Notes under the pieces: generated by a model
Database searches by the model: none
What the model was told of the DNA's origin: nothing
The model's input: only the letters and a program-made list of their open reading frames with translations
Part shown: positions 23,826-25,947 of the stretch, in pieces
How positions within the stretch are numbered: the first letter of the stretch is position 1
Layout of the letters: each line of letters opens with the position of its first letter
Origin: Methanogenium organophilum
GTDB lineage: Archaea > Halobacteriota > Methanomicrobia > Methanomicrobiales > Methanomicrobiaceae
Assembly (NCBI RefSeq): GCF_026684035.1
Contig: NZ_CP113361.1
Location: forward strand, 310,001-374,000
Direction: 5' to 3'
DNA: 64,000 bases
Translations under genes and position numbers: made by a program

Positions 23826-25004
23826 TTATAGTACCGTAAGATCGTTTTCACGGGCAATCTCCTGGAATGCCCTGCACACATGTGATATCTGTGCCTCGTT
23901 GAGCCCATAGGTATTGAATTTCCAGACACGGGTTGAACCGGGAATCACGCCAATGATACCTTTCTTCTTTAATGACTGCGAGAGGAAGAAACCCTTTTTC
24001 TTATGGGTTTTGGCAACAGTATCAAAGGAATCCATCGTATTGATTCTCGTGAGGGTGTGTTCACGCGGCATGTCACTTTCCACCTGTGTCCCCTCAATCG
24101 CACAGAGTGCATCAACAACCCTGTTACTGTTTTCCACTTCACGGTCCCAGTGCAGGACACGCTCTTTGACTGCCGGGAAAGATGCCATCAGGCCAACAAC
24201 GGTCACACCCATCAGCGTGCACCCCATCATCTCAACTTCCTTGATGCCAAACGTACGGCCGGTGATATCTCCAACCGACTGTGTCGTCCGGAAGACAATA
24301 TCTGCATATTCACTGGTTGTCGCAACAAGCCCGGAGGGCGCCGGTGCAGCCATACTTTTATGGCCGGAACCGATGACAAAGTCCACACCCAGTGCCTTCC
24401 CGTCGACCGGCATGATACCAACACTGTAGGCCCCGTTTAAGAGAACCGGGATGTCATACTGGTGAGCCACCTTTGCGATCTCTGCAATCTCATGAACGTT
24501 GCCATACTGGTAGTCCACATGTTCAACAAAGAGAATGGACGGTGCCTTCCCCGCCTCACGGGTGACCTCCTCTATGCGTGCAGCAGCATTGTCTGCAGTG
24601 ATATGATTATGCTCATCTTTTGGAATCTCGTGAATATCCGCACCTGCCTGTTCAAGTGAGACAAATTCCGTGTAATGCGAAAGAGCCGTCAGGAGAACAG
24701 GATCCCCTTTCTCAACGATTGAACTTGCCACTGCCTGAAACCCACGCCTTGCACCGGGGACCAGACGGACGGCGTCCATGTTCAGCCATTCAGCACAGTC
24801 ACGATGAAACTCTGCAATCGGGGGTTTATTGATATAGTCCAGGCGGAACGGTTTGAGACAGTTATCGCATACAGAGTATCCATCAGAATACGCTATAGCT
24901 GCCTTTTGTGCATCAACAGTCAGACGACCTCCTGCCTGAATGGGATCAATATTAATGTAGAGCTCTTCCACATCACGGGTATCGATGGTTGCGGTGCACT
25001 TCAT
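23826..25004 (-). CDS. pscS: O-phospho-L-seryl-tRNA:Cys-tRNA synthase (SepCysS)
   Basis: A 392-residue PLP enzyme converting Sep-tRNA(Cys) to Cys-tRNA(Cys), the methanogen route to cysteine. The PLP Lys is in GSGHKSMAAPAPSGL. The conserved catalytic cysteines are in SVCDNCLKPFR (C-x2-C) and EVEMMGCTLMG. FVEHVDYQYGNVHEI and LLNGAYSVGIMPVDG are fold-type I signatures. Its ATG overlaps the stop of a 59-codon upstream ORF as TGATG. The nearby thiI uses similar Fe-S/sulfide chemistry. SepRS is not in this window. Confidence 0.95.
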   Translation of the reverse strand: MKCTATIDTRDVEELYINIDPIQAGGRLTVDAQKAAIAYSDGYSVCDNCLKPFRLDYINKPPIAEFHRDCAEWLNMDAVRLVPGARRGFQAVASSIVEKGDPVLLTALSHYTEFVSLEQAGADIHEIPKDEHNHITADNAAARIEEVTREAGKAPSILFVEHVDYQYGNVHEIAEIAKVAHQYDIPVLLNGAYSVGIMPVDGKALGVDFVIGSGHKSMAAPAPSGLVATTSEYADIVFRTTQSVGDITGRTFGIKEVEMMGCTLMGVTVVGLMASFPAVKERVLHWDREVENSNRVVDALCAIEGTQVESDMPREHTLTRINTMDSFDTVAKTHKKKGFFLSQSLKKKGIIGVIPGSTRVWKFNTYGLNEAQISHVCRAFQEIARENDLTVL

Positions 25005-25183
25005 CAGCTCAGTTCCTCCTCAAGTATTGTCACCTGTTTTTTTAATTTTTCAATCGCCATTCCGGCACGAACTCTCTGATCATCATCGAGTTCGTGGACA
25101 GGTGCTGTCTCCCGCAGAATAAACCGAATATCTGTGAGAAGATACAGCGCCTGAAACAGGGCATCTACCGCACGTCTTGACAT
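25004..25183 (-). CDS. 59-aa helical protein translationally coupled to pscS
   Basis: A 59-codon frame starts MSRRAVDALFQALYLLTDIR and ends in a strongly helical, Lys/Glu-rich tail (AIEKLKKQVTILEEELS). Its TGA overlaps the pscS ATG as TGATG. An AGGCAGG-like ribosome site lies upstream of the ATG. The tight overlap and heptad-like C-terminus argue that it is real and works with SepCysS. In class I methanogens a helical protein, SepCysE, bridges SepRS, SepCysS and tRNA. This ORF is much shorter and I see no clear similarity, so a related role is only a hypothesis. Confidence 0.65.
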   Translation of the reverse strand: MSRRAVDALFQALYLLTDIRFILRETAPVHELDDDQRVRAGMAIEKLKKQVTILEEELS

Positions 25184-25347: not shown

Positions 25348-25947
25348 ATGCGCAAGGTTCAGATCCCTTCAATGCTCAGAGATCTCGTCTCTTCAGCAGT
25401 ATTATCAGCCGATGGAATCACATTCACCCGGCTTGATGACTGCCCATACTGCGGCGGACCGGTAAAGGGCCATGACATGCGCCGCAAACGGTTTGCAACA
25501 GTAAGAAATAAGAACGGCAAGCAGACGGTGCACGTATTTGTGAAGAGATATCACTGCGAAGCGTGTGGAAGACTCTGCTATGCAGAGTCACCATTCTATC
25601 ACGATACCAGAATGGGAATCCCAATCGTTGACCTCTGTAATGCCCTGATTCAGGAGCACCCATATCATCATGCGGCCCGAATTCTTGAATCGCTTGGTAT
25701 CGTGGTCGATAGGGGTACACTCAGAAACTATGCACAACGCACGTTTCCCCAGCCCGATGTTATTGAAATGTATGGGGTGCCGATCCCTCTCTCCATCCTG
25801 AATATGAATGAACAGTCATTCAGAGGAGACGAGACGGGTACCATCCCAAGGACAGAACTCCTCCGAACCGGTGGTCTCCCACCCACAGCACGGGCACTTC
25901 TTTTTGCGATGCAGGGGAGCGGCCAACGGAATCAGCGGAATAAATAG
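25348..25947 (+). CDS. Zinc-finger / HTH protein resembling a transposase N-terminal region
   Basis: A 199-residue frame. Residues 30-75 form a zinc finger: CPYCGG, then KRFATVRNKNG, then YHCEACGRLCYAE. A helical segment follows (PIVDLCNALIQEHPYHHAAR ... ILESLGIVVDRGTLRNYAQR) that looks like a helix-turn-helix. This layout resembles the N-terminal part of DDE transposases, but no DDE catalytic domain follows. It is either a domesticated DNA-binding protein or a remnant. The last 40 residues are antisense to a better-looking small zinc-ribbon ORF and may be read-through. AGGAG lies ten bases before the ATG. Confidence 0.5.
   Translation: MRKVQIPSMLRDLVSSAVLSADGITFTRLDDCPYCGGPVKGHDMRRKRFATVRNKNGKQTVHVFVKRYHCEACGRLCYAESPFYHDTRMGIPIVDLCNALIQEHPYHHAARILESLGIVVDRGTLRNYAQRTFPQPDVIEMYGVPIPLSILNMNEQSFRGDETGTIPRTELLRTGGLPPTARALLFAMQGSGQRNQRNK

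Follow-up and report, generated by a model that had tools for sequence, protein, structure and literature searches.

A short gene overlapping pscS in Methanogenium organophilum matches SepCysSn, a predicted hairpin partner of SepCysS

We analyzed a 64,000-nucleotide window of the Methanogenium organophilum genome (contig NZ_CP113361.1) and identify a 59-codon open reading frame (ORF) immediately upstream of pscS, the gene for the Sep-tRNA:Cys-tRNA synthase SepCysS. On sequence grounds, this ORF is SepCysSn, a predicted small helical-hairpin partner of SepCysS that received its name from Mukai et al. 2017 (PMC5424206), since in other archaea this domain forms the N-terminal part of a fused SepCysS. 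We consider it probable that the protein serves as a small partner or subunit of SepCysS, equal to the N-terminal domain of the scaffold protein SepCysE alone, rather than as a bridge to SepRS. The gene belongs to what is apparently the organism’s only route to Cys-tRNA. A subunit this short is easily overlooked, as the window protein matches no family model in Pfam or NCBIfam.

The SepCysSn gene occupies positions 25004..25183 on the minus strand, encodes 59 amino acids from an ATG start, and ends in a TGA stop codon (25004..25006, minus strand) whose final A is the first base of the SepCysS ATG. The sequence-only reading had described this TGATG junction, and the full frame from ATG to TGA is present as it stated. 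The overlapping downstream gene (23826..25004, minus strand) encodes a 392-residue protein that is identified as SepCysS by its matches to NF006810 (E 7.5e-178) and TIGR02539 (over its cut-off), with 3wkr_A and 2e7i_A as relatives in the PDB. The last codons of the SepCysSn frame contain GAGGAGG (25015..25021, minus strand), read by eye, which we take to be a Shine-Dalgarno-like site for SepCysS, judging it against the consensus from general knowledge. A scan with sigma-70-type promoter and terminator models, which are not meant for archaea, returned no more matches than in shuffled sequence. Alignment with 3wkr_A shows that this SepCysS carries an eight-residue insertion relative to the M. 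jannaschii enzyme, probably the insertion near the catalytic site that is mentioned in a 2022 paper (PMC8762117). A ThiI-family gene (PF02568; 22396-23598, plus strand) converges on SepCysS, and a homolog occupies this flank in 19 of 33 named loci, although several of the loci are truncated. On the other flank, a 199-residue protein with weak zinc-ribbon and transposase-like matches (25348-25947, plus strand) is encoded divergently from SepCysSn and has a homolog at the same place in six of the 33.

The gene pair is conserved among relatives. A search of 60 related genomes yielded 58 matches with E-values of 1.8e-10 or better, from 56 genomes, and SepCysS lies directly downstream in all 58 loci (56/60 relatives), bearing out the expectation that the ORF is kept before pscS. 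Stop and start codons overlap by four bases in 40 loci and by one base in 10, and are zero to three bases apart in the remaining eight. Neither a SepCysSn homolog nor SepCysS was found over the cut-off in the other four genomes (G004, G019, G027, and G058; 71-89% complete); two of these contain weak SepCysS matches of 40-44 bits in frames of 533 to 958 residues that look like other enzymes. In the 33 named loci, drawn from Methanogenium, Methanoculleus, Methanocalculus, Methanospirillum, Methanoregula, Methanocorpusculum, and other genera, SepCysS is invariably the next gene, within 40 nucleotides in 32 and across a 399-N assembly gap in the last. In one draft Methanogenium locus (L007, G001:C22), SepCysS itself is in two pieces, reflecting a frameshift or a sequencing error.

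Conservation extends to the protein level. The median dN/dS of SepCysSn is 0.035 within the genus (15 Methanogenium pairs) and 0.20 across the order (786 usable of 1653 pairs). None of the 58 loci has an in-frame stop in the SepCysSn frame, while the other five frames contain stops in 38 to 54 of the 58. The 59-codon ORF is thus a genuine, strongly conserved gene and not a chance ORF, given stop-free homologs in 56 of 60 relatives, the low dN/dS within the genus, and the stops in the other frames.

Profile comparison connects the protein to SepCysE, a kinship that the sequence-only reading had anticipated. A profile built from 56 SepCysSn homologs (A1) and searched against 177,635 PDB sequences places M. 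jannaschii SepCysE (MJ1481) at ranks 1 and 2 of 12 (E 0.0018 and 0.02), ahead of a third match at E 0.47. The broader profile A3, which includes fused domains, scores SepCysE worse than A1 does (E 0.049), and a search with the single SepCysSn sequence reaches it at no better than E 0.87, at ranks 4 and 5 of five. In the reverse direction, a 42-residue piece of MJ1481 gave eight matches at E 0.1 or better in 246 genomes of the phylum, four of which are small SepCysSn-type ORFs. Pfam and NCBIfam scans of all 56 homologs returned weak, scattered matches, most commonly to DUF2100 (PF09873; 12/56 homologs, E up to 1, best E 0.0025), which is the family of MJ1481 itself (5.7e-16); the window protein does not reach the DUF2100 cut-off. 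Weak DUF2100 matches also occur in 11 of the 60 relatives, and in nine of these they fall on the SepCysSn ORF at profile positions 38-87. The alignment to SepCysE is confined to residues of about 42-99, its SepCysS-binding part. The 59-residue frame therefore does not extend to the SepCysE N-helix that binds SepRS, and upstream extensions of the frame across the 58 loci are not common to the relatives. The tRNA-binding C-terminal domain of SepCysE is absent from the ORF, and the genome contains no DUF2100 match over the cut-off.

Structure prediction gives a two-helix hairpin (residues 3-25 and 34-58) with a pLDDT of 96.5. The coiled-coil-like tail proposed previously is indeed helical, but makes up only part of this fold. 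Foldseek comparison against 350,542 chains returned SepCysE for all of the top five matches (E 0.037-0.11, probability 1.00), with an unrelated sixth at E 1.3. VIA-align superimposes the model on residues 42-99 of 5x6b_F with an rmsd of 1.7 Å over 58 residues and an identity of 22%, the highest in its list. The Z scores of the SepCysE chains (7.9-8.1) nonetheless tie with those of helical hairpins from unrelated proteins, Vps23 among them (Z 8.7), and fold similarity by itself would therefore not settle kinship with SepCysE.

The genomic setting is that of the SepRS-SepCysS pathway. The M. organophilum genome encodes SepRS (692 bits) and a single copy of SepCysS, with no SepCysE over the DUF2100 cut-off. 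The same is true of SepCysE in the relatives (0/60 over the cut-off, with M. jannaschii, the positive control, above it), in keeping with the earlier supposition of a lineage that lacks this protein. No CysRS match to TIGR00435 was detected at E 1e-40 in this genome, nor in 55 of the 60 relatives; PF01406 matches in M. organophilum are restricted to frames of 684, 1302, and 955 residues, which we take for other class I synthetases. No tRNA-Cys gene lies in the window. Since SepRS and SepCysS are present while SepCysE and CysRS go undetected, the SepRS-SepCysS route is probably the organism’s only source of Cys-tRNA.

Beyond the split arrangement, the profile also matches longer SepCysS frames (440-534 residues) at their N-terminal end among 246 sampled genomes of the phylum. 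In the 45 genomes of the order within this sample, all 61 SepCysS matches bear the hairpin domain, 48 as split genes and 13 as fusions. After removal of sequences with fewer than 330 aligned residues, we examined 126 SepCysS: in 78 the domain is a split gene, in 28 it is fused, and 20 lack it, these last having been picked deliberately among SepCysS that score 494 bits or more for the family. A tree built from 89 of the 126, all from one phylum and with only every third sequence of the first batch (loci L002-L059) retained, separates domain-bearing from domain-less SepCysS by a branch with 100/100 support. Split genes form one clade (97/98) nested among fused SepCysS, which favors a single fission from a fused ancestor; by the AU test, a topology with all fused forms in one group is not rejected (p 0.167). 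The passages of Mukai et al. 2017 (PMC5424206) drawn on here suggest fusion in modern archaea. Over 32 split and fused domains, Arg20, Arg24, and Pro28 are the sole invariant columns. One genome also contains a second, fused SepCysSN-SepCysS copy (L190, G013:C3:261900-264500), additional to the 61, that is broken, leaving a 193-residue frame in which the domain is joined to about 90 SepCysS residues.

A related ORF occurs away from SepCysS. In two genomes of another family, f31, a 63-64-residue ORF resembling the SepCysE N-terminal domain lies directly upstream of gyrB (L224, 1427-1615, minus strand; L228, G248:C1:178997-179161, minus strand), with DUF2100 E-values of 2.6e-4 and 1.1e-5, respectively, the second over the Pfam cut-off. 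The best PDB match of the L224 ORF is SepCysE (E 0.0084), and the gyrB neighbor in G248 matches Pfam DNA_gyraseB. In G238, SepCysS is on another contig and falls in the clade without the domain. The remaining 55 genomes of the order that includes f31, all of family f9, contain no such ORF at E below 0.01. The gyrB-adjacent ORF is possibly an unlinked SepCysSn.

The known architecture of SepCysE frames the possible roles of such a protein. According to the sections of Chen et al. 2017 (PMC5688128) considered here, an N-helix (residues 1-24) binds SepRS, an N-terminal domain (35-101) forms a dimer bound to the SepCysS dimer, and a C-terminal domain (111-213) binds tRNA. SepCysSn has just the second of these three parts, so a subunit rather than a bridge is the simplest reading. 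SepCysSn would be translated just before SepCysS from the overlapping genes and, judging from its homology, would bind SepCysS physically, most likely in a 2:2 complex of two dimers by analogy with the SepCysE N-terminal domain in M. jannaschii. There it would act as a fixed structural subunit that stabilizes or shapes the enzyme. The gene overlap, the ribosome-site-like stretch in the upstream frame, and the fusions elsewhere suggest that the two chains may be made and assembled together, co-translationally.

The sequence-only reading proposed instead a minimal SepCysE-like adaptor. Kinship with SepCysE, adjacency to SepCysS, and the absence of SepCysE itself all hold; the proposed linking of SepRS, SepCysS, and tRNA-Cys does not follow, as both the N-helix and the C-terminal domain are missing. 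An adaptor could still join SepRS to SepCysS through a contact other than the N-helix, in line with its homology to a scaffold protein, the SepRS gene in the genome, and the term adapter peptide that Mukai et al. apply to SepCysSn (PMC5424206). We regard this as improbable: the frame begins at about SepCysE residue 42, and in M. jannaschii SepRS binding was lost when the N-helix was deleted (PMC5688128). Of the 14 positions in the M. jannaschii SepRS loops that hold the N-helix (376-380, 411-414, and 494-498, as given in the same source), 3 are identical in the SepRS of this genome, which does not set the loops apart from the surrounding C-terminal region with its 35% identity (P 0.22). A pure translational leader, in which SepCysSn couples or tunes SepCysS translation and the peptide itself is inert, would account for the overlap of stop and start codons seen in 50 of the 58 loci and for the ribosome-site-like stretch inside the frame. 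It is nevertheless highly implausible in light of the conservation at the protein level (dN/dS 0.035), the confident fold, the SepCysE homology, and the existence of fused SepCysS with this domain in other genomes.

A third possibility, unlikely but less so than the adaptor or the leader, is that SepCysSn helps SepCysS hold tRNA-Cys, with Arg20 and Arg24 of helix 1 replacing the grip of the SepCysE C-terminal domain. The invariance of these arginines and of Pro28, at a site where SepCysE has Asp63 and Tyr67 opposite the arginines, agrees with such a role. Lineages that bear the hairpin domain would also need another grip, because tRNA binding by the SepCysE-SepCysS pair became undetectable once the C-terminal domain was removed (PMC5688128, as far as the consulted sections report). 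The arginines may equally form salt bridges to SepCysS, however, and we found no structure of a SepCysSn-SepCysS complex. In the solved complex, moreover, SepCysS and the C-terminal domain of SepCysE together hold the tRNA, and the sections of Chen et al. used here do not describe an N-terminal domain contact (PMC5688128). A more ambitious extension of the subunit reading holds that SepCysS is an obligate two-part enzyme throughout the order. Here, the two-arginine hairpin would perform the tRNA positioning of the SepCysE C-terminal domain, Sep-tRNA would be handled without a SepRS bridge, the split form would trace back to a single fission event in an ancestor with the fused gene, and hairpins unlinked to SepCysS would occur in other places, such as directly before gyrB in one archaeal family. 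We view this combined scheme as a long shot, about as doubtful as the adaptor. The function of the hairpin alone would distinguish the enzyme-stabilizing part of SepCysE from its channelling part.

The M. organophilum protein falls within a type known since 2017. Mukai et al. described C-terminally truncated SepCysE homologs that are fused or genetically coupled to SepCysS and named them SepCysSN and SepCysSn. In the portions of that paper and its 2022 successor on which we rely (PMC5424206 and PMC8762117), SepCysSn is a separate small gene before SepCysS that is homologous to the SepCysE N-terminal domain and occurs in archaea without SepCysE. The same is found here: homology to the SepCysE N-terminal domain, a separate gene before SepCysS, fusion elsewhere, and a SepRS-SepCysS organism, with no difference from SepCysSn as those portions present it. 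The word Methanomicrobiales is absent from the main texts of both papers. What our analysis adds are the association counts, the invariant Arg20, Arg24, and Pro28, and the SepCysS tree. A further parallel, taken only from Mukai et al. (PMC5424206), is PylSn, the small N-terminal protein of split PylRS, which likewise occurs either as a separate gene or as a fusion to a tRNA-linked enzyme. SepCysE itself (MJ1481; PDB 3WKR, 3WKS, 5X6B, and 5X6C) shares with SepCysSn the helical hairpin, the APxHxL turn motif, and the sequence and fold of the N-terminal domain, but additionally possesses the SepRS-binding N-helix, linkers, and a Toprim-like tRNA-binding C-terminal domain. In the profile A1 alignment, the invariant Arg20 and Arg24 of SepCysSn face Asp63 and Tyr67 of MJ1481, so the surface of the small protein is not simply the same as that of SepCysE.
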